The notes beneath the pieces were generated by a model. The model made no database searches, was not told the DNA's origin, and saw nothing but the letters and a program-made list of their open reading frames with translations. A stretch of DNA of 47,194 nucleotides, from positions 1 to 47,194 of the forward strand of contig JAKIUF010000035.1 in NCBI GenBank assembly GCA_021647705.1, in the 5' to 3' direction. The position numbers and the translations under genes were made by a program. Source of the DNA: Gammaproteobacteria bacterium (GTDB lineage: Bacteria > Pseudomonadota > Gammaproteobacteria > SZUA-152). Positions 2,766 to 41,782 of the stretch are shown here, in pieces (positions within the stretch are counted from its first letter, which is position 1; each line of letters starts with the position of its first letter).

Positions 2766-3147
2766 TCAATACAGATACACCGCACCGGATGATTCTGCTG
2801 AGCTATCTCCAGCATCGCCATTTAGTCCAGTTGCATTGCTATCTTCCTTGCTCGCGCCAACAGCAAGTGTTTTACCATTGTTCGCCAGACTGATGGCTCT
2901 TCCGAAACGATCACCTGCTTCACTATTGCCAGACTTGATATAAGCCTGCTGGCTCCAGTTATTACCACTTCGAGAAAACATATACACCGCACCAGAGTCA
3001 TCATCAACTATCGGATCACTCCTCTGATTACCATTGATTCCAATGGAGTTGCTATCTTCCCTGCTCGCCGCTACCGCAGGCAAAGAGAAAGAACAGGCTG
3101 AAAACGCTGGCAATGCCAACACTAAAAATTTGACTTGACCTGTTCAT
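2766..3147 (-). pseudogene. Frameshifted, shortened FG-GAP repeat lipoprotein
   Basis: From ATG at 3147 a lipoprotein leader is read (MNRSSQIFSVGIASVFSLFF, then LFACGSGE), but this frame stops after about 31 codons. In another frame, from around codon 25, the sequence continues as SREDSNSIGINGNQ and one complete FG-GAP unit (FGRAISLANNGKTLAVGAS), ending ESSGAVYLY exactly as the 693-residue FG-GAP lipoprotein ends. The leader has thus been joined out of frame to the last one or two repeats of a large gene, with loss of the rest. A product read only from the ATG at 3122 would lack a sensible leader. Confidence 0.65.
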
Positions 3148-3219
3148 GATTTCTATCTCTTTTGAAATAGTTTGTTTAATATGAAAATCATTTTTTACAG
3201 TTTGCCCGCTCTCACCAGC

Positions 3220-5409
3220 TTATTGTGATGTTATGGCTCGATCACCCGTGGTCAGATCGACCACCAGCAGAGCATTGAGCACGCTATCCACTATCATGGC
3301 TCGATTATTTTCGTTATCGATGACAATACCTTTAGGGTTTACTAAAACAGGGCCAGCACCCATAACGGTATCCGACAATACAGATAGATTGCCGTTATTT
3401 ATATCGACGGACATCAAAGCAGGGTTTCCAGAGACATCATCGACTATCAGCACTCGGTTATTAGTGCTATCCATAGCCAGACCCTGTGGATCAGAAAGCC
3501 CACTACTGATGAAGTCGCCTCCTAACAGAGCGGTGCGGTCTCCTGTAGCTAAATCTATAGCCAGCAGGCCGGGTTCGGGAGGACCTCCCAGACCAAAACC
3601 CGGGAAGAAGTTCACAATCAATACCCGGTTATTTGCACTGTCCAATGTTATGCCGCCTGGACTAATATCTGGCCCACTGCCCGTGGCACTGTCAGAGATA
3701 ATGGCCTGATCAGCCGAATCTAAACCCACTGCCAGCAGGGCACCGTTACGTACCATCAATAACCGGTCGTTAGCACTGTCCAGAGTAATACCTGTAGCCA
3801 AGCCAGTAGCATCAGAGAAAATCGTGCGATTACCGGTAGTCAGCTCTAGTGCGATCAAAGCACTGCCATCCACAACCAGTGCTCGATTGTTGGCACTGTC
3901 CAGTTCAATATCGGTTGGACTTGAAAAGCCCGGGCCTGACCCGATGCCTGCTTTAGAAAAAATCGAGCGATTGCCTGTAACCAAGTCCACTGCAACGATA
4001 CCGTCATCTTCCACAATGAGCACCCGATTGTTAGCGCTATCCAGGACAATTTTTTGCGGGTTGTCAAAAGTCGCCCCTGAGCCGGTACTGGTTTTAGCAA
4101 AAGCCGTGCGAATGCCGGTATTTAGATTTATGGCTATCAATCCACCGCTACTCATAATATTAGGTAACAATACTCTCTGCTGCTCACTATCAATGGCAAA
4201 TCCAAAAACAAATCCAGGAAAATCAGAACCAGGACCAGATACAATGGTCCGATTTCCTAAAAGATCTACTGCATACAAACTGTCATTACCATTATTAAAA
4301 ATCACTACTCTATCGACGGAAGGGTTGCTGCTATCAAGTCCAACGGCTAGTGGACCATCAAAGTCAGGGCCAGAACCAAAGGCACTATTGTCAGATAAAA
4401 CCCTGCGCTCACCAGTCTCTAAATTCACTACAAAAAGCGGGTTTACCAGTGCAGTTCTTTCTATCGGCAAAAGCACACCATCATTAGCTGAATCCATCAC
4501 CAAAACAAAACCACTCTCGATAAATGCGATAGATTTTGGAGCTACAAAACCTGGTCCATCACCCAAAAGCAGTCCGCTACCGATAGACCCGGAGACAATG
4601 TGGCGCGCACCATCGATGAAATCAATTGCAATAATTGCATTGAGGCCATTATCAATCACCAGTGCTCTTTCATTTTCAGTGTCTACGATAAGGCTGACAG
4701 GGTTTGCAAAATCTCCCGCTGTTGAAAAAAAGCTGCGGTCACCCGTCGTTAAATCTATCGCTAAAATCACACTGGAACCGAACTGTATGACCAGGGCACG
4801 ATTATTAACATTGTCGATTGCCAGGGCTATTGGACTTGAGAGATCTGCACCAGCCTCTAAAGTGACGCCAACGTCAGCGCTTGATATGATGCTGTTCTCA
4901 CCGGTATCTAAATCTACTGCGCCCAGGACTGGTTGTGCAGCAAAAATACCGGACACCAGAAAGCGATTGTTGTCTTTATCCAGCACAATGTTAGATGCCT
5001 GAGAGAATTGAAGTGAGTTTTTCAGGCTGTGGCTTAGTGTATCTGTACTGCCATCACTATACCCAACAGTTATATCCAGGTTGGTCGTAGTATTAACCGT
5101 TACCGGTATCTGTACCGACCAACGTGAGGGATCATCTGCATCCAGCGTAGCGAATACACCATTGACACTAACAAAGTTAATATCATCAGCGGAGACCGGA
5201 GCGCTATCGGAGCGTGCCAGTTTACCGCTGATCAATGTCTGGCTGACACCACCCAGATCAGCACTGGCAGTAGGATAACTGAGACTGACCCTATAGTTGT
5301 CGGTGACAGCAAAAGAACTACCTCCGCCGCCTCCACCACAGGCAACCATCAGAAGTATGCTGAGCATATAAAAAATGTTGCGTGTGCAAGATCGATTCAA
5401 ATTTCCCAT
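3220..5409 (-). CDS. Large lipoprotein with 12 NHL-like propeller repeats
   Basis: 729 residues. The lipobox (MLSILLMVACGGGGGG) ends at about residue 24, followed by a Gly linker, so the protein is lipid-anchored in the envelope. Residues about 35-130 form a non-repetitive N-terminal domain. From about 135 to the end there are 12 units of roughly 45-50 residues with the core LDSANNRVLIVD...AVDLxTGxRTxxS, often separated by GSGPxFxxP. They resemble NHL/SMP-30-type beta-propeller blades; twelve would make two six-bladed propellers. The start is supported by AAGGA nine bases upstream. Propellers of this kind commonly bind ligands or proteins; no catalytic motif is seen and the ligand is unknown. 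A long plus-strand frame across it (3824-5002) is an antisense shadow. Confidence 0.75.
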   Translation of the reverse strand: MGNLNRSCTRNIFYMLSILLMVACGGGGGGSSFAVTDNYRVSLSYPTASADLGGVSQTLISGKLARSDSAPVSADDINFVSVNGVFATLDADDPSRWSVQIPVTVNTTTNLDITVGYSDGSTDTLSHSLKNSLQFSQASNIVLDKDNNRFLVSGIFAAQPVLGAVDLDTGENSIISSADVGVTLEAGADLSSPIALAIDNVNNRALVIQFGSSVILAIDLTTGDRSFFSTAGDFANPVSLIVDTENERALVIDNGLNAIIAIDFIDGARHIVSGSIGSGLLLGDGPGFVAPKSIAFIESGFVLVMDSANDGVLLPIERTALVNPLFVVNLETGERRVLSDNSAFGSGPDFDGPLAVGLDSSNPSVDRVVIFNNGNDSLYAVDLLGNRTIVSGPGSDFPGFVFGFAIDSEQQRVLLPNIMSSGGLIAINLNTGIRTAFAKTSTGSGATFDNPQKIVLDSANNRVLIVEDDGIVAVDLVTGNRSIFSKAGIGSGPGFSSPTDIELDSANNRALVVDGSALIALELTTGNRTIFSDATGLATGITLDSANDRLLMVRNGALLAVGLDSADQAIISDSATGSGPDISPGGITLDSANNRVLIVNFFPGFGLGGPPEPGLLAIDLATGDRTALLGGDFISSGLSDPQGLAMDSTNNRVLIVDDVSGNPALMSVDINNGNLSVLSDTVMGAGPVLVNPKGIVIDNENNRAMIVDSVLNALLVVDLTTGDRAITSQ

Positions 5410-5465
5410 GGTAATGCTTCCTTAGTGATTATTTGTAATCGGGTTATGCACCTGATTGTTTGCCA

Positions 5466-5502
5466 GGGAGCCTGCGTCCTCCAGACCAGGTCAGAGGCTC
5501 CC
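5466..5502. terminator. Hairpin between two lipoprotein genes
   Basis: GGGAGCCT (5466-5473) pairs with AGGCTCCC (5495-5502) around a 21-base loop. A weak T-rich tail follows on the plus strand only. It lies just downstream of the minus-strand gene 5511-6227, so it may act as a weak transcription stop or an RNA-stabilising hairpin. Confidence 0.3.
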
Positions 5503-5510
5503 GAATATTT

Positions 5511-6227
5511 TTATCGAAGAGAGATTGTAAGGGTTGTTTTAATGGAAACCAGGTGTTTACTGCCTACAGAGTCGGTTGCTTCGAAATCAGCTAAAACAAC
5601 GGTGGTACAGGCTGTGAGAGCGGGCGCTTCGACCGTTGGTATGCCCGCAGGACAATTGTTCGTTAACAGAGAGGGATCGCTCGGGCTTGTGAATACGGTC
5701 GCCAGGTCCGGGAGCGAGGCCGGGTCAGTAATTATGTCAGGCACAGGGCTTGTGTATGTTTCCTGACAGTTTTGTACCGTTGTGCCTTCTACTTCAATTA
5801 TTTTATTTTGGGTTCCGGCGGCATAATCTGCGACTGCGGTTACCTTTCCATGTGGCAAGCCATCACACATAGATACAAAAGTAACGGTTCTGTTTACCTG
5901 TGTAATCTCTAAAAATGTAGAGCCACTCATGCCATAGTCCTCTGTCACACAGTCGTAGGTGATGATGCCGTTGGTGCCGGATTCTGTTTTAGTCGAGAAA
6001 AAAACGCCTTTTCCAGCATCAGGATTGCCAGACGGAATATCGGGAACCACTCCTAATTGTATTTCTGGTTCAGTAGAATTACATGTTAACGGCACCAGGC
6101 TTGTACCTACGCTCAGGGTGTCGCCTCCACCAGCATCGCTGCCTCCACCGCCGCCACAGGCAGAGAGAAATAACAGGTTAAAGCTGTAGATGATTCCGGA
6201 AAAAAATTTATGGTTAGATCTTTTCAT
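5511..6227 (-). CDS. Unknown lipoprotein with Cys-Gly5 leader
   Basis: 238 residues from ATG at 6227, which has AGGA eight bases upstream; longer starts run into the preceding gene. The lipobox is LLFLSACGGGGG, followed by a Gly/Asp linker. The mature domain has several cysteines (TCNSTEPEI, YDCVTEDYG, SMCDGLP, VQNCQETY, NNCPAGIP), so disulfides in the periplasm or on the surface are likely. It lies 40 bases after the FG-GAP gene on the same strand and may be co-transcribed. I do not recognise a family. Confidence 0.6.
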   Translation of the reverse strand: MKRSNHKFFSGIIYSFNLLFLSACGGGGGSDAGGGDTLSVGTSLVPLTCNSTEPEIQLGVVPDIPSGNPDAGKGVFFSTKTESGTNGIITYDCVTEDYGMSGSTFLEITQVNRTVTFVSMCDGLPHGKVTAVADYAAGTQNKIIEVEGTTVQNCQETYTSPVPDIITDPASLPDLATVFTSPSDPSLLTNNCPAGIPTVEAPALTACTTVVLADFEATDSVGSKHLVSIKTTLTISLR

Positions 6228-6267
6228 ATTTTGCATCCTGATTTCTAATAGCTTGTTTAAATTTGGC

Positions 6268-8346
6268 TCAATACAAATAAACCGCACCGGAACCGCTACC
6301 TAAAATTGCATTATTGCCCTGATCACCATCAACACCGGTGGCATCGCTATCCTCAGAGCTCGAACTTACGGCCAGACTTGTTCCATCATTACTCAAGTCA
6401 ACAGATCCGCCGAAGGAATCGAGCACACCACTATTACTCGCCTTGATGTAGGTTTGTTGTTGCCAGCTAGCCCCACTGGTAATGCCACCACTGCGAACAA
6501 ATAAATAAGCAGCACCCGAAAGAATCGCCGAATCATCTGTTTCATCACCATTCATTACGGTAGTATTTGATGCTTCACCCGGCGCACCTACGGCCAGCGT
6601 GTTGCCACCGTTGCTTAAACTCACGGTGAACCCAAACTGATCACTTGCATCCGTATTACTGGCTTTGACATAAGCCTGTTGACTCCAGTTTCCTGAGCTA
6701 CGGGTGAACACATACACCGCTCCTGAATCAGTGGCCAGGTTATTATTTTCGTCATTATTGATTCCGATGGCATTACTGTCTTCACCTGTGGCACCCACCG
6801 CCAAAGTAGCCCCATCACCGCTCAAGCTTAACGAATGACCAAAACTTATATTCCACCCAAGCCGGCTATCTTTAAGATAAGCCTGTTGGCTCCAGGCTGT
6901 ACCGCTTCGGGTAAATACATAAACCGCTCCGGCACCCGGTGTTGAGTTATCCAGTTGATCGCCATTAATACCGGCAGCCATACTGGCTTCGTTATTGGCA
7001 CCCACGGCAAGGGTATTACCGTCTCCGCTTAAGCTGACATCCCAGCCAAAATTATCACCAGAACCAGTATTGCTGGCCTTGACATAGGCTTGCTGAACCC
7101 AGCTAACGCCCGTGCGTGTAAACACATAAACTGCACCAGAAGCACTCGCCAGGTCATTATTCTGGTCACCATTTATTCCTTCTGCATCACTGCGTTCTGC
7201 ATACGCTCCTACTGCTAGCGTATTGCCATCATCATTCAGGCTCAGCGCATAACCGAAGCGATCCTGAGTACCCGAGTTGCTGGCTTTTATATAAGCCAGC
7301 TGACTCCAGTCATTGCCACTGCGGGTAAATACATACACAGCACCCGATTCAATGGCCGTTTCATCATTCTGATCACCATCGATACCATCTGCGTCGCTGT
7401 GCTCGGCATAAGCACCAACCGCCATTGTATTACCGTTTTCATTCAGGCTGATTGCCCAGCCAAAACGATCACCGACATCGGTATTACTGGCTTTGACATA
7501 GGCCTGTTGTGTCCAGTCAGCACCATCACGCGTGAACACATAAACCGCGCCTGAGTTATAATTTTCATTCCATAACAGGTTTTCATTACCCTCATTTCCG
7601 TTAATTCCAGTCGCATCGCTATCTTCAAAAATGGCTCCGACTGCCAACGTATCGCCATCCCCACTGAGTTCAACAGAAACGCCAAAAGCATCATCGACTT
7701 CTGTGTTGCTGGCTTTGAAATAACCGATGGCTGAAAGCAGTGAAGCACTCGCGCTCAGGGTGGTTGAGTCGGTACAACCTGACGCATTACAGCTTTGTAA
7801 AATGTATGATGCATTCAGTCGTTTAAAGAGTGGCACAATATGATCAATACTCTGTACTCCCTGGGCTATATCACCGCCTGCCTGGGAAAAGCCACTGATA
7901 CCATTTGGGTTTTCCAACAACTTGTAGTGGGTTGCATCGGCTACATCCACCCAACTGAAGTGGAAGTTTTTAACTGCTGTAAAGTTTAAAACGGGTAACG
8001 CTGGCGTGGCCGGCACACCACCAGAACTGGTCAGGCTAAAGCTCGCGGTTACCGTACAATCACTTGTAATGGCATCAGTGATATAGCTATTTCCAACCAA
8101 GTTACCACCACAGCCGCTAACAGTATTAATCTCAAAGCCGGCATTTGCACTAACAGTAAAACTCGCCATATCACCATCGTCCACCGTTACATCGGAAGGA
8201 AAGATGGTGCCGCCAGAACCTGCATCACCCGTAACAAAGTGAGTGGTAGTGCCACCGCCACCGCCGCCACCACAAGCAGTCAGCAACAGAGAAATAAACA
8301 TATATAAAGTACAACGCACATAAGATGGCCGATTTAATTTCAACAT
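6268..8346 (-). CDS. FG-GAP repeat lipoprotein with InlB-like N-terminal domain
   Basis: 693 residues from ATG at 8346 (AAAGAGAT upstream; this start places the lipobox LLLTACGGGGGGG correctly, unlike the longer frame). After the Gly linker a domain of about 65 residues resembles the divergent InlB B-repeat (GGTIFPSDVTVDDGDMASFT, with a pair of cysteines). A fibronectin-III-like region of about 100 residues follows. The remainder carries seven units of 60-70 residues with the core FGxxxSLSxDGNTLAVGA and spacer GAVYVFTRSGxxWxQQAYVKASN. This is the FG-GAP/integrin-alpha pattern and predicts a seven-bladed propeller. Asp/Asn-rich loops (DSDATGINGDQ) look suited to calcium binding. A surface-exposed adhesive or binding role is an inference. 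A frameshifted, shortened relative lies at 2766-3147. Confidence 0.75.
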   Translation of the reverse strand: MLKLNRPSYVRCTLYMFISLLLTACGGGGGGGTTTHFVTGDAGSGGTIFPSDVTVDDGDMASFTVSANAGFEINTVSGCGGNLVGNSYITDAITSDCTVTASFSLTSSGGVPATPALPVLNFTAVKNFHFSWVDVADATHYKLLENPNGISGFSQAGGDIAQGVQSIDHIVPLFKRLNASYILQSCNASGCTDSTTLSASASLLSAIGYFKASNTEVDDAFGVSVELSGDGDTLAVGAIFEDSDATGINGNEGNENLLWNENYNSGAVYVFTRDGADWTQQAYVKASNTDVGDRFGWAISLNENGNTMAVGAYAEHSDADGIDGDQNDETAIESGAVYVFTRSGNDWSQLAYIKASNSGTQDRFGYALSLNDDGNTLAVGAYAERSDAEGINGDQNNDLASASGAVYVFTRTGVSWVQQAYVKASNTGSGDNFGWDVSLSGDGNTLAVGANNEASMAAGINGDQLDNSTPGAGAVYVFTRSGTAWSQQAYLKDSRLGWNISFGHSLSLSGDGATLAVGATGEDSNAIGINNDENNNLATDSGAVYVFTRSSGNWSQQAYVKASNTDASDQFGFTVSLSNGGNTLAVGAPGEASNTTVMNGDETDDSAILSGAAYLFVRSGGITSGASWQQQTYIKASNSGVLDSFGGSVDLSNDGTSLAVSSSSEDSDATGVDGDQGNNAILGSGSGAVYLY
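6290..7730 (-). repeat. Seven tandem FG-GAP-coding DNA repeats (about 200 bp period)
   Basis: Recurrent near-identical words such as ACATAAGCCTGTTG and ACATACACCGC or ACATAAACCGC occur about every 200 bases on the plus strand. The frame is preserved. Similarity between units is high enough for recombinational gain or loss of blades. Confidence 0.65.
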
Positions 8347-8721
8347 AGTTATCTCTTTAATTAGTAGTTGCATTGACTTCTTGAACTTTTTCTTCCTTAA
8401 AGATGTTGAAACACAAAAATAGACGCGCTCCTCAAGCTGGGGCTTCATTGCCTGGAGAATCAGCAAGGCAGTATGGATTGAGATCGATCTTGTCAGTCCC
8501 CGCTTCTCTACAACCTGATGCTAATAGCATCACCTACTGTAGACAATAGATACACATGCTCAATATTTGCGAGTACAAGTGCTTAGTGAGGCAGGCCTTA
8601 AAGATCGTTGCGGAGAAGCATCCGCAAAGTTATTAAATCAATCTGACACTGGTACTCCGTCCAGGTTTATTGAAAGAGTACCAGGCGCGAGGTGCGCGGT
8701 TTACGTTATTCTGAATAAGTA

Positions 8722-8922
8722 AGGGACGTGCATGTAATAACATCCCGATTTTGCATCTCAGCTTCAGCCCGTCTTCGCCTAAAGCGCCTACTGTTGGTGC
8801 CCGTTCTTCAATCACAAAAGCTCGAAATAGAACGACTATTCCTGCACTTTTGTTCAATCAGAACGAACAAATATAGACTAAATCTGAGCGCCAAATCGGG
8901 ATGTTATTACATGCACGTCCCT
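8722..8922. mobile_element. 201-bp element with perfect 30-bp terminal inverted repeats (MITE-like)
   Basis: Positions 8722-8751 (AGGGACGTGCATGTAATAAC onward) are the exact reverse complement of 8893-8922, with further imperfect pairing inward. The element lies in the otherwise gene-free stretch 8347-8982 and encodes nothing convincing. I saw no clear target-site duplication. It contains at 8775-8803 a 29-base word found again at 11671-11700. The remainder of 8347-8982 holds no feature I can support. Confidence 0.6.
8775..8803 (+). repeat. Short shared repeat, copy 1
   Basis: Begins TCGCCTAAAGCGCCTACTG and ends GTGCCCG. It is matched at 11671-11700 with only one extra A. This copy lies inside the 201-bp inverted-repeat element. 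Confidence 0.6.
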
Positions 8923-18800: not shown

Positions 18801-19062
18801 AAATGTGAACTAAAGGCTAAATCACTCTGTAAGTGCTTTTTTATTGGAGAATATCGTTAGCCGGAACCCAGAGGTTTACACCTTCGGACAATCGTTTCAG
18901 TCTGTATTGCCGTGGTGCTGACAAGTGGCGTGTTATAAACGCAGAGGTCGCAGAGGTCGCAAAGGCGCAAAGGACGCAGAGAAAAACACTGCGTCGCTGC
19001 GGCTTCTGCGTTAAATGCCGGGTAATTTTTTAAAAGGTGTTTTCAGCACTTAATTTACATTT
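18801..19062. repeat. Dispersed MITE-like repeat, copy A
   Basis: Begins AAATGTGAACTAA and ends TTAATTTACATTT, near-perfect terminal inverted repeats. Internal landmarks are TCGGACAATCG, CTGACAAGTGGCGTGTTATA and a core at 18938-19012 bounded by AACGCAG and CTGCGTT, made of short GC-rich runs such as GCAAAGGCGCAAAGGACGCA. It lies between lnt and the dehydrogenase gene, whose start follows 55 bases later, so it may carry or disrupt that gene's promoter. Short frames inside it are not genes. Confidence 0.7.
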
Positions 19063-19117
19063 AACAATTCGCGTATTTCGGTCAGTCGTTCCGGCCAAAA
19101 AATATCAGGAGACCACT

Positions 19118-20545
19118 ATGTCAAATGGCCAAAACCAGGAAATTTCTTTTCGCGAAAGTGTAGATCGTATGGTGGACCGTGCCCTTGAGGCCATAGATTT
19201 GTCGGCTGATATCGCAGCGGCGATTAAATCTTGCAATGCAGTATTACAAGTTAAATTTCCCGTCAAAATTAAAGGTAAGATTGAAGTTATTTCTGGCTGG
19301 CGAGCGGTACACAGCACTCATCGTCTGCCCGCCAAAGGCGGTATTCGTTATGCGCCTTGCGTGAATCAGGACGAAATGGAAGCGCTTGCGGCATTGATGA
19401 CTTACAAGTGCTCCATCGTGGATGTGCCCTTTGGTGGTTCTAAAGGTGGTCTACTGATTGATCCGCGAAAATATGACCGGGATGAAATGGAATTGATCAC
19501 CCGGCGTTTCACTCTTGAATTAGTGCGCAAGGGCTTTCTGAACCCGGCCACCAATGTGCCAGCGCCGGACATGGGTACCGGTCAGCGTGAAATGGCCTGG
19601 ATGGCAGACACTTACAAACACCTCAACCCGGATGATATTAATTATACGGCCTGTGTCACTGGCAAGCCTGTGGAACATGGTGGTATTCAGGGGCGGACAG
19701 AAGCCACGGGTCGTGGTGTGCAATATGCCTTACAGGAATTTTTTCGTCATGACGATGCGGTGAAAGAAGCCGGTCTGGAAGGCGGTTTGGGTGGTAAACG
19801 GGTGGTGGTGCAAGGTTTTGGCAACGTGGGTTATCACGCATCTAAATTTTTGTTTGAAGAAGATGGCTGCAAGGTCATTGCGATTGCTGACAGCAAAGGT
19901 GTGCTGGTGAATGAGGACGGCCTCGCTATCGAAGAGGTGTATCGTTACAAGGTGGAGCATAAAACGCTAAGCGGTTTTTCAGGCGGACGTTATGAAGAAG
20001 GCAGCACCGCGCGCGCACTGGAAATGGATTGTGATATTTTGATTCCTGCCGCATTGGAAGGACAAATTAACCTTGCCAATGTGGATAGGGTAGTGGCGAA
20101 GATTATTGTAGAAGCAGCCAACGGTCCGATTACTTTTGCTGCCGATGAAAAGTTGAGTGAACGTGGCACCATTGTTATTCCTGACGCCTACGCCAATGCG
20201 GGGGGGGTTATCGTTTCCTATTTTGAGTGGATTCGTAACCTGTCACACATCCGTTTTGGACGTATGCAACGGCGTTATGATGAGATTCGTGGACAAAACC
20301 AAATTGATGCACTGGAAGATGTGACGGGTAAACGAGTGCCTGATCGATTTCGGAAAAAAATTAACGGCGGTGCCAGCGAACTGGATTTAGTGCGCTCAGG
20401 GTTGGATGATTCCATGCGCCAAGCTTTCCAGGAAATGCGTGCGACACGAGAGTCAAATAAAAAAATAACCAGTTATCGCATGGCTGCGTATGTTAATGCC
20501 ATTCGTAAAATTGCGCGTTCATATCTGGATATTGGTGTTTATTAA
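19118..20545 (+). CDS. Glu/Leu/Phe/Val dehydrogenase family (glutamate dehydrogenase-like)
   Basis: 475 residues from ATG at 19118, with AGGAG seven bases upstream. The N-terminal substrate domain shows PAKGGIRYAP (K73), the neighbouring K97 in TYKCSIVDVPFGGSKGG, and NVPAPDMGTGQREMAWM. The Rossmann domain has VVVQGFGNVGYHASKFL and IAIADSKG. This is the oxidative deaminating dehydrogenase fold; length and motifs favour glutamate dehydrogenase interconverting glutamate and 2-oxoglutarate with ammonium. The C-terminus (about 390-475) carries an extra basic stretch (GRMQRRYDEIRGQNQ; GKRVPDRFRKK). Cofactor preference is uncertain. An ammonium transporter lies 6 kb upstream, but the genes are not in one operon. 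Confidence 0.88.
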   Translation: MSNGQNQEISFRESVDRMVDRALEAIDLSADIAAAIKSCNAVLQVKFPVKIKGKIEVISGWRAVHSTHRLPAKGGIRYAPCVNQDEMEALAALMTYKCSIVDVPFGGSKGGLLIDPRKYDRDEMELITRRFTLELVRKGFLNPATNVPAPDMGTGQREMAWMADTYKHLNPDDINYTACVTGKPVEHGGIQGRTEATGRGVQYALQEFFRHDDAVKEAGLEGGLGGKRVVVQGFGNVGYHASKFLFEEDGCKVIAIADSKGVLVNEDGLAIEEVYRYKVEHKTLSGFSGGRYEEGSTARALEMDCDILIPAALEGQINLANVDRVVAKIIVEAANGPITFAADEKLSERGTIVIPDAYANAGGVIVSYFEWIRNLSHIRFGRMQRRYDEIRGQNQIDALEDVTGKRVPDRFRKKINGGASELDLVRSGLDDSMRQAFQEMRATRESNKKITSYRMAAYVNAIRKIARSYLDIGVY

Positions 20546-20640
20546 GCCATATTATTGATGTTGCGTACTCGAATAATGAGTCGATGACTGATGGTTTTTA
20601 CATGATGCTGCAACGCGTATTTTGACTGAAGTCTGCGCAA

Positions 20641-20834
20641 TACCAGAAGCTCTCGGACAATCGCTCCAGTCTATTGGGAGGTTATGTTGTCGTGCTACTG
20701 ACAAGTGGTGTGTTATGAACGCAGCGGCCGCAACATTTTTAGTGTTTTTCTCTGCGTCCTTTGCGCCTCCGCGACCTCTGCGTTAAATACTCGGTGATTC
20801 TAAAACAAATATTTTTAGCGCTTAATTCACATTT
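20641..20834. repeat. Dispersed MITE-like repeat, copy B (inverted core)
   Basis: Shares CTCGGACAATCGCTCCAG and CTGACAAGTGGTGTGTTAT with copy A and ends TTAATTCACATTT (20822-20834). Its core, 20718-20784, still bounded by AACGCAG and CTGCGTT, is the reverse complement of the copy A core (TTTTTCTCTGCGTCCTTTGC), while both flanks keep the copy A orientation. The usual left terminus is missing or diverged; sequence at about 20553-20605 resembles 26530-26575 instead. It lies between the dehydrogenase and the ybeL-like gene. Confidence 0.65.
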
Positions 20835-20871
20835 AAGACCTGCGTAACATCAGTGACTAAACACCATTAGT

Positions 20872-25547: not shown

Positions 25548-26159
25548 CTACAAATGGAAAATATAACCAATTGAAAATAGTGAAATATTTTCTTCAGCAG
25601 GCGTGCTGGATATCGGTATGGAAGGTTTCATATTGTAAAAATCGGCACCAAAACGCACGGCAGATCGACCGCTGATATGATAATCAGCACCGACGCCGAA
25701 ATACACATTAACGTCGTCGTCGCTAGCGGAAAAAGAGGGAGTACTGAAATCATATGCCCATCTAGCGAGCCCGACTTTGCCAAATAGTGAGAAATCAGTG
25801 CTGGCGTGCAGTTTCCCCAGCAGGGCAACTTGTAGCACGCTGACTTTTGCTTTATAGGCTCCTTCTGAAGCTTCTCCCAGGTTTGCCCAACCAAAGTCAA
25901 TTGCCAGTGCTTCATTGATGTTGAATCCGCCAAAAACACCAAAGGCTGCACTGGAGTCATTGGCTTCATCATACATGGCGTTTCCAAGGTTTGCTCCTAT
26001 GTATATGTTTGATGACATATTGGAGGACATGCTATGCGGCCGGGTAACGATAATATCATTAGCAGCGTATGCAGCGATGCTGCTGAAAAAAGACAATGCG
26101 CCAAGGGCGAGTGCGCCACAGGTCATATGTGGTTTTCGACAGATAGTGTTAGGTTTCAT
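25548..26159 (-). CDS. Small outer-membrane beta-barrel protein
   Basis: 203 residues from ATG at 26159, with AAGGAG six bases upstream. The signal peptide ends near AYAAND. The mature part reads as alternating beta strands typical of eight-stranded OmpA/OprF or OmpW-like barrels: NIYIGANLGNAMYDEAN, FGVFGGFNINEALAIDFGWA, VLQVALLGKLHASTDFSLFG, VYFGVGADYHISGRSAVRFG, and a C-terminal Phe-x-Leu ending (FSIGYIFHL). No peptidoglycan-binding domain. It should sit in the outer membrane; ligand or pore role unknown. Confidence 0.75.
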   Translation of the reverse strand: MKPNTICRKPHMTCGALALGALSFFSSIAAYAANDIIVTRPHSMSSNMSSNIYIGANLGNAMYDEANDSSAAFGVFGGFNINEALAIDFGWANLGEASEGAYKAKVSVLQVALLGKLHASTDFSLFGKVGLARWAYDFSTPSFSASDDDVNVYFGVGADYHISGRSAVRFGADFYNMKPSIPISSTPAEENISLFSIGYIFHL

Positions 26160-26279
26160 GGGGAACTCCTTGTGAATCAATGTTGAATGGCTAAATGCCG
26201 GAGCAAGGTGATAGAGTATGTGCCAATTCCTGAAGTTTCAAGTCGTACAGGATACGGGGCTGCGGGTACTCAGGAGGTT

Positions 26280-26516
26280 AAATGTGAATTAAGGGCTGTA
26301 TCACTCTGTTAGCGGGGATCCAGAAATTTACACCCTCGGACAATCATTTCAGTACAGTGGGAGCTTATATTGTCGTGGTGCTGACAAGTGGCGTGTTATA
26401 AACGCAGAGGTCGCAAAGGCGCAGAGGACGCAAAGAAAAACACTAAAAACTCTGTGCTCTCTGCGTTAAATACCCGGTAATGTTTAAAAAAGTATTTTTA
26501 GCGTTAATTCACATTT
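26280..26516. repeat. Dispersed MITE-like repeat, copy C
   Basis: Begins AAATGTGAATTAA (26280-26292) and ends TTAATTCACATTT (26504-26516), exact reverse complements. The core at 26401-26467 has the same orientation as copy A. It occupies, with copy D, most of the gene-free stretch 26160-26850. Confidence 0.75.
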
Positions 26517-26571
26517 GAGCATGAATTAACGGATGTTACGCACTTGAGTATGCATTAATGGCAGATGGTTT

Positions 26572-26706
26572 TTATGTGAATTAAGGACTAAACCGCCCTG
26601 TTTTCGGTGTATGGAGTAGCGTTTGGGTAATGAAAATCCAATGCAAAGGCTGAAAGGATAAAGAATATCTCTTTGCGCTCTCTGCGTCTTCGCGCCTTTG
26701 CGTTAG
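26572..26706. repeat. Dispersed repeat, partial copy D
   Basis: Starts TTATGTGAATTAA, then diverges, and resumes as CTCTGCGTCTTCGCGCCTTT with the core in copy B orientation, ending near GCGTTAGAT. No right terminus is found, so it is a truncated or rearranged copy. Confidence 0.5.
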
Positions 26707-26850
26707 ATTTTATGGTTCTGCAATTCGTGGTCCGGGAACGGCCTGCCTCACTGAATTAGAAAACATCTAGCATGTTCCTGGGAGCTAAAAAACACACGGT
26801 TGCGAAAAGCCAGTGAGTATTAAAGAGCTTATGCAAAGGTATGTTTCCTG

Positions 26851-41643: not shown

Positions 41644-41782
41644 AAATGTGAATTAAAGGTTAAATCATACTGAGAATACGGCCATTTCAGTATGTCTTTA
41701 GCAGGGATTCAGAGGTATAAATCTCTGGAAAAACACCCCGGAGATTTTTAAAAGAGTGTTTTTTAGTGCTTAATCCACATAT
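41644..41782. repeat. Dispersed MITE-like repeat, short copy E without core
   Basis: Begins AAATGTGAATTAA (41644-41656) and ends TTAATCCACATAT (41770-41782). Between them the AACGCAG...CTGCGTT core and the ACAAGTGGCGTG block are missing, leaving 139 bases, apparently by internal deletion. It lies between the receiver-kinase gene and the next hypothetical gene. Confidence 0.6.

Follow-up and report, generated by a model that had tools for sequence, protein, structure and literature searches.

The window analyzed here, a stretch of 47,194 nucleotides from a genome of the Gammaproteobacteria, harbors several copies of a MITE-like, non-coding dispersed element with an invertible palindromic core of variable length. 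Orientation of the core is mostly inherited within subtypes of the element; the character that changes fast is the length of the core arms, not the orientation. We consider it probable that the core inverted on rare occasions between the inverted arms within the element, and that changes in the number of arm units and mixing of flanks share a cause with these inversions, namely exchange between arm sequences able to pair.

Distribution and structure of the repeat family

The left junction of the element (TGACAAGTGGCGTGTTATAAACGCAG) gave 107 matches with at most three mismatches in the 4.44 Mb genome containing the window (82 contigs), and the reversed pattern used as a control gave none in this genome, a difference far larger than chance would produce. 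With one ambiguous base in the pattern, the junction was found in 9 of 30 genomes including the own genome, which had 113 matches; 7 of 11 congeners had 2 to 105 matches each, and beyond the genus, 7 genomes of the family were covered, one of which had a single match. A related pattern was matched exactly in the Gammaproteobacteria MAGs S013_42, M_MetaBat.51, M_MetaBat.201, D96SM.bin.23, and HyVt-540. Eighty regions around copies of the own genome and then 33 more were retrieved. Two of the match lists gave 100 entries each, out of 107 and 118 matches; the copies were collected via left junction, ends, or loop, and the set consists of copies carrying at least one of these features.

Elements of type 1 span AAATGTGAATTAAGGGCTAAA to TTAGCGCTTAATTCACATTT and have a commonest length of 250–300 bp, and those of type 2 differ in the outer portion on the left and continue further on the right (ACTGATGTTACGCA ... 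TGCGTAACATCAGT). Inverted ends resembling AAATGTGAATTAAG and CTTAATTCACATTT were detected in 24 copies by a permissive search, and ends resembling ACTGATGTTACGCA and TGCGTAACATCAGT in 11 type 2 copies. The end-to-end spacing at 114 loci of the own genome peaked at 250–300 bp, with a few longer spans of 550–2595 bp. As is characteristic of MITEs, the elements are short, non-coding, present in high copy number, and mostly intergenic, and they have terminal inverted repeats; according to rough ORF calls, the core overlaps an ORF of at least 100 aa in 4 of 117 copies. No match to an Rfam family above the gathering score was obtained in the window.

The core is an imperfect hairpin consisting of two arms around the lopsided loop AAAAACACTAAAAA. 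The arms are built of units of 8–9 bp; the modal arm has 34 nt, and arms of 25 or 17 nt are frequent. Typical cores start with AACGCAG and finish with CTGCGTT. These heptamers, described in the earlier note on this DNA as inverted repeats bounding the core, are indeed its inverted ends, but they belong to the outermost units of longer arms, mostly 17–34 nt in length, and do not bound the core as heptamers alone. The stem is nearly palindromic, and the loop and the inequality of the arms served to determine orientation. A symmetrical palindrome, in which orientation would be meaningless, is not what was found: the loop gives orientation a meaning.

Copies in the window

The features identified in the window are listed in Table 1. 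In copies A, B, and C alike, the left flank (...GACAAGTGGYGTGTTAT) points the same way, as does the right flank (AATACYCGGTRATT-like). The cores of A and C had been described as sharing an orientation (here called forward, F) and that of B as reversed (R) between fixed flanks, and this proved correct: positions 18949–18990 of A and 20741–20782 of B form an inverted repeat of 42 nt with a match of 95%, and the cores of B and C are 80% complementary across 76 nt. On a profile of F cores, copy C scored 67.6 bits directly and 12.1 bits in reverse, copy A 47.5 and 20.9 bits, and copy B 10.8 and 61.0 bits. The orientation of A rests on this profile score; its loop is half deleted, and the loop search left the copy uncalled. 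A further copy D had been assigned the orientation of B. It probably corresponds to a degenerate core-like stretch at about 26672–26711 within the type 5 element; this stretch has no loop and scored 16.1 bits directly vs 19.8 bits in reverse, and the assignment could not be upheld. The copy at 41644–41782 has no core at all.

Table 1. Elements of the repeat family and their cores in the window
Feature	Position	Strand	Remarks
Copy A, complete type 1 element	18801–19064	+	Ends AAATGTGAACTAAAGGCTAAA / CAGCACTTAATTTACATTT
Core of copy A, orientation F	18938–19012	+	A-rich loop shortened to AAAAACACT
Copy B, type 2 element between convergent genes	about 20555–20854	+	Ends TTGATGTTGCG / CGTAACATCAGT
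Core of copy B, orientation R	20718–20784	-	T-rich loop ATTTTTAGTGTTTTT on + strand
Copy C, type 1 element	26278–26517	+	About 98 bp upstream of minus-strand OmpA-like ORF 25548–26180
Core of copy C, orientation F	26401–26467	+	Orientation from F-core profile score
Type 5 element	26573–26760	+	Left end as in A–C, other inner flanks; right limit uncertain
Short type 1 copy without core	41644–41782	+	Read as internal deletion

RNA folding of the cores of A, B, and C was more stable than the shuffle mean, with z values of -7.7, -2.8, and -4.6; 0, 2, and 0 of 200 shuffles, respectively, folded as well. Comparison with relatives was carried out for the sites of A and B. In alignments there is no room for copy A at the same place in genomes G002, G004, G006, and G007, and the sequence of the empty site was obtained from G004, G006, and G007; the site in G008, whose flanks lie on two contigs, was left out of this comparison. 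Copy B is present in the own genome and in G007, and the alignments leave no room for it in G002, G004, G006, and G008; here, the site sequences are filled in G007 and empty in G004 and G006. The empty sites in relatives indicate that both copies are insertions. A duplication of the 4 bp TTAA fits copy A by eye; the ends of 24 copies showed no constant duplication.

Orientation of the core across the genome

A first pass over 105 junction matches gave 62 F and 35 R cores, with 8 copies, A included, remaining uncalled. A second pass over more loci, in which core orientation was scored in the genome copies as the earlier note had proposed, resulted in 68 F and 49 R cores, between flanks of constant orientation, among 117 distinct copies with the left flank. 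These counts, like the profiles and the flank mixtures described below, derive from a best-match search that may skip a weaker neighboring core; a rescan gave 146 cores in the own genome as compared to 140 earlier, and 143 once repeats were removed. All 44 of the R cores among 99 complete cores scored better on the F profile when reversed (mean 68.8 vs 25.8 bits). On the R profile, each of the 55 F cores likewise scored better when reverse-complemented; these scores include the loop, which is itself the basis of the orientation calls. F and R cores are the same sequence, and separate insertions of GC-rich repeats, which had been named as another possible origin of the copies, do not apply. Both orientations are present in four genomes, i.e., the own genome, G007, G008, and G002.

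Furthermore, an arm signature independent of the loop was examined. Among 143 cores of the own genome it was located on the side of the A-rich loop in 73, and on the T side alone in none; both sides carried it in 4 cores and neither side in 66. The corresponding numbers for 86 cores of G007 were 50, 2, 1, and 33. The signature thus stays with the A-rich side of the loop, which indicates that the inversion covers the loop together with the inner arms and ends in the outer units.

Orientation is strongly linked to subtype. Type 1 copies comprised 40 F and 8 R cores and type 2 copies 9 F and 32 R cores (Fisher P = 4e-9 for types 1 and 2, calculated with 28 unassigned copies, 19 F and 9 R, excluded). 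On a tree constructed from the flanks only, orientation needs 17 changes (bootstrap range 16–18) as compared to a mean of 32.6 for shuffled orientations, and none of 500 shuffles reached 17 or fewer; exchange between flanks would inflate the number of 17. This tree has 99 rows and 133 columns, 14 of its 96 inner branches are well supported, and its bootstrap is unsettled; at least 5 orientation changes are forced by the well-supported branches. Judging from these sequences, several inversions of the core seem to have taken place, with orientation otherwise handed down from copy to copy.

Comparison with orthologous copies

The congener G007 is about 93% identical to the own genome over shared loci, with most matches longer than 1 kb ranging from 88% to 97%. 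It gave 105 junction matches; part of these regions was retrieved, and 86 cores in 61 loci were compared. Ortholog pairs were required to have both unique flanks, which yielded 42 lines, 39 with the same and 3 with opposite orientation. Subtraction of one doubtful opposite line and three duplicates left 38 pairs, of which 36 have the same orientation and 2 the opposite one, both of the latter at one locus. Copy B is among the 36 and has the R orientation in G007 as well. Base-by-base reading covered some of the pairs, and flank homology was used to drop lines among the opposite ones alone; the near flanks of the same-orientation pairs mostly match to a high degree, with a few low values (e.g., 70/125 for L136/L099 and 84/126 for L149/L123).

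The excluded third pair, L132 1230 / L079 3884, differs in 20–30 nt beside the core on both sides, and its loops are matches with four errors. Its outer flanks match well (99/117 and 104/122). This pair is possibly a diverged flipped ortholog, and the count of unchanged orientations would then be 36/39.

The two opposite copies are located 1.8 kb apart in inverted positions at locus L106/L130. In element 2, the core is reversed and the flanks adjoining it are kept on both sides; further out, the left flank is shorter in G007. In element 1, the core is reversed and the right flank differs, too. Element 1 is R in the own genome and also in G004, which resembles the own genome less closely than G007 does, and F in G007; hence, parsimony places the flip in the G007 lineage. 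A swap of the two neighboring cores was considered and found to be unsupported: the arm start of element 1 common to the own genome and G004 is missing, by eye, from element 2 of G007.

An inversion between inverted repeats had been suggested as the explanation for the difference between copies. In agreement with this suggestion, loop and arms are reversed together, and both orientations occur at one orthologous site in two species. These comparisons of sequences support inversion as part of the history of the repeat. That a segment is found in both orientations and bounded by inverted repeats does not suffice to demonstrate a switch; the further proposal of an actively switching orientation is unsupported, with orientation unchanged in all but two of the orthologs (or three, if the doubtful pair is included) and following subtype.

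Turnover of arm units and mixed flanks

In 29 of the 36 same-orientation ortholog pairs at least one internal indel of at least 6 bp was found within 110 bp of the loop. The indels had lengths of 8, 9, or 17 bp in 32 of 42 cases, corresponding to one or two arm units. The match between the two arms within a copy was compared to shuffles: none of 300 shuffles was as high in G007 (n = 81), and 172 of 300 were in the own genome (n = 132). The asymmetry of the arms is well kept.

Additionally, the same core and loop occur between a third pair of flanks (L235, L240, L241, L243, and others), with the loop in both orientations. Besides L1-R1, the flank mixtures L1-R3, R1-L3, R1-R3, and R1-R1 were observed around the core; flank labels were assigned by permissive patterns, and some copies carry two labels. 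The class was represented by 369 genomes, 27 of which contain the sequence of the arm unit with one mismatch allowed; 13 of these, the own genome included, had two or more matches (counts by eye), and the reversed control gave single matches in 9 genomes. Of six foreign loci inspected, four have the appearance of hairpins with different loops, unlike L211 and L213.

Origin of inverted cores

Flips, unit changes, and flank mixtures, we infer, have exchange within the arms as their common cause. Template switching by a polymerase, or recombination, between the two inverted arms would invert the segment between the switch points; slippage between direct arm units would gain or lose 8, 9, or 17 bp; and exchange between copies via their common arms would produce mixed flanks. 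A dedicated invertase or a switch function would not be needed. A study in yeast (PMC8604942) describes that template switching at short inverted repeats leads to inversion of the spacer and homogenization of the arms. Template switching also predicts that the arms of a copy are alike, which was seen in G007 and was absent in the own genome.

Exchange of whole cores between oppositely oriented copies by gene conversion, without any inversion within a copy, is a less probable alternative. It would explain mixed flanks as exchange between copies at the core, and it would fit the altered right flank of element 1 and the shorter outer left flank of element 2 at L106/L130. However, no trace of a swap of neighboring cores was visible there by eye, and the flanks of element 2 are kept right up to the core.

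Another explanation, which appears unlikely, regards the core as a small mobile palindrome (AACGCAG...CTGCGTT) that was inserted either way into larger repeats and never inverted in place. An identical core and loop between several pairs of flanks, and similar arm units with other loops and flanks in other Gammaproteobacteria, would agree with such a module. On the other hand, left and right flanks joined without a core were not found in 12 genomes of the genus (exact pattern of 18 bases, an insensitive search), and short copies without a core look, by eye, like internal deletions with differing ends. Moreover, the opposite orthologs with adjoining flanks kept would demand excision and reinsertion at an identical point. 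Mobilization by a RAYT received no support, either: neither core arm nor loop was found within about 1.5 kb at the IS200-like transposase loci examined, i.e., 6 loci of the own genome (of 13 IS200-like matches) and 6 of G007 (of 8).

A more far-reaching version assumes that the palindrome is a separate and still active module, either a self-mobilized hairpin or a recombination joint, which flips, changes its size, and swaps flanks among repeat families. We regard this as quite improbable. If it were true, such a module would be the driving force behind new mosaic repeats, and the arm-unit hairpins of other Gammaproteobacteria would be the same module.

Gene context

Copy A is located 54 bp upstream of the ATG of a Glu/Leu/Phe/Val (ELFV) dehydrogenase gene, which lies downstream of A and upstream of B; across copy B, a DUF1451 gene is convergent with it. 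The genes around copy C encode an OmpA-like protein and a PAS/GAF histidine kinase. Among 110 copies with neighbors on both sides, 60 lie between tandem, 37 between convergent, and 13 between divergent genes, and 7 more copies lie at locus edges. Crude ORF calls for 370 adjacent gene pairs of the same loci, the copy-bearing pairs included, gave 249 tandem, 67 convergent, and 54 divergent pairs. The copies are thus over-represented between convergent genes. The statement that the repeat is placed before genes holds for A, for C, and for 73 of the 110 copies, but not for B; since 73 of 110 copies precede a gene, their position alone leaves room for an effect on expression. A scan of the cores of A, B, and C alone with the sigma-70 consensus revealed no promoter-like site inside, and no terminator-like site was detected in them either.

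A phase-variable inverton, turned by a recombinase and altering the expression of the neighboring gene, is very unlikely in the light of these data. Inverted repeats do bound the segment, both orientations exist in the genome, and the short distances of A and C to ORFs (54 and about 98 bp) would suit it, as would the 73 copies preceding a gene. Yet orientation is kept across species in 36 of 38 orthologs, the proportion of copies preceding a gene is lower than that among gene pairs at large (73/110 vs 303/370), and the cores of A, B, and C lack a promoter-like site; in addition, a loop of about 14 nt and an arm length that differs in 29 of 36 pairs speak against it. Apparent inversions caused by assembly errors at the hairpin are highly improbable. 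The assemblies compared are split into 82 to several hundred contigs, and their stems contain repeats, but most cores are shorter than about 100 nt and their flanks have diverged. Moreover, F and R cores are both found in four genomes and cluster by subtype, and 36 of 38 orthologs agree.

Most likely, the element with its rarely inverting core has no fixed role that depends on orientation. Transcripts, such as those of convergent genes flanking a copy, may be affected by the predicted hairpin.

Relation to known repeats

Among the literature matches listed, a family with an invertible core is undescribed. Titles and abstract openings of the matches listed for MITEs and inversion mention no bacterial element with an inverting core; the matches listed for AACGCAGAGG and for CGCAGAG palindromes are unrelated, and the accessible text of PMC4666352 contains none of the unit sequences. 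The comparisons below likewise refer to the accessible parts of the papers cited. BrickBuilt, a MITE of Porphyromonas gingivalis (PMC4596501), is also short and intergenic and has inverted ends and an inner array of short units. Its units are 23 nt long and arranged in tandem, whereas those described here make up a pair of inverted arms, and the core in its entirety is found in both orientations. Correia elements, RUP, RPE, and YPAL/RU-2 (PMC2229807) are likewise dispersed, often intergenic, and able to form stem-loops, and none encodes its own transposase. Unlike the situation found here, an inner segment occurring both ways round between fixed flanks is not described there. The spacer inversions in yeast (PMC8604942) and the inversions of small hairpins in chloroplasts resemble the present case in that inversion between short arms is recurrent and reversible. 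In yeast, the spacers have a few bases, whereas here the inverting stretch comprises loop plus inner arms, some 44 bp or longer, and lies in a repeat of high copy number.

More than 100 copies with constant flanks and readable orientation, together with a congener of about 93% identity that has many insertion sites in common, provide a natural experiment on the frequency of hairpin inversion, slippage, and recombination in a bacterial genome. First counts from the orthologs are 2/38 for opposite orientation and 29/36 for a change in unit number.

REP and BIME sequences with their RAYT (PMC2817692) are, like the present elements, extragenic palindromes of high copy number that form mosaics in alternating orientation. 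REPs have a GT(A/G)G head and flank a rayt gene; the cores described here have no head of the GTAG type. In G007, a match to the right-flank pattern was observed about 600 bp from an IS200-like transposase gene (L274), and at L296 a different repeat, GTAGGGTGG, is present on both sides of an IS200-like gene.

Tandem copies of the element and further core arrangements

The MITE-like element was found in tandem at L123 (12384-12752), L055 (7763-8033) and L151 (9218-9524), the figures being positions within each fetched locus. At these orthologous sites, the tandem copy number of the element is unequal between the source genome and its congener G007.

The core, the central imperfect hairpin of the element, was also observed in other settings. 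A fragment of the third flank type interrupts it at L099 2374 and L136 1648, as if one repeat were nested inside another; this arrangement is common to both genomes. Furthermore, the same intergenic gap in the two genomes holds core-bearing elements with unlike adjoining sequence (L079 3884, L132 1230). At L073 3807 and 4817, hairpins are built from the arm units of the core, but their loops differ (AAAAATAAATAAAAA, AAAAACAAATAAAAA), as do their flanks, which constitute a further flank type.

Other repeats

Dispersed palindromes of REP type, distinct from the core, were detected at L050, L102, L106, L107 and L296, namely GTAGGTTGG...GAACCCCAAC and GTAGGGTGGAACAAGCG...GGTTCCACC. An IS200-like transposase gene of G007 (L296) has the latter palindrome on either side.

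Additional repeats are located in the window itself. Ends resembling those of the inverted pair at 8722-8922 were also observed at L049, L101 and L192; together, these sequences perhaps represent another MITE family.

Repeat features of the window
Feature	Position	Strand	Remarks
Inverted pair	8722-8922		33 nt arms (AGGGACGTGCATGTAATAACATCCCGATTTTGC), 97% complementary; spacing 135 nt
Repeat-bearing region, overall	2766-7722		
ORF with repeats	6268-8466	minus	repeats at 207 nt spacing
Repeat units	2766-3122		related to the 207-nt-spaced repeats
ORF with other repeats	3220-5409
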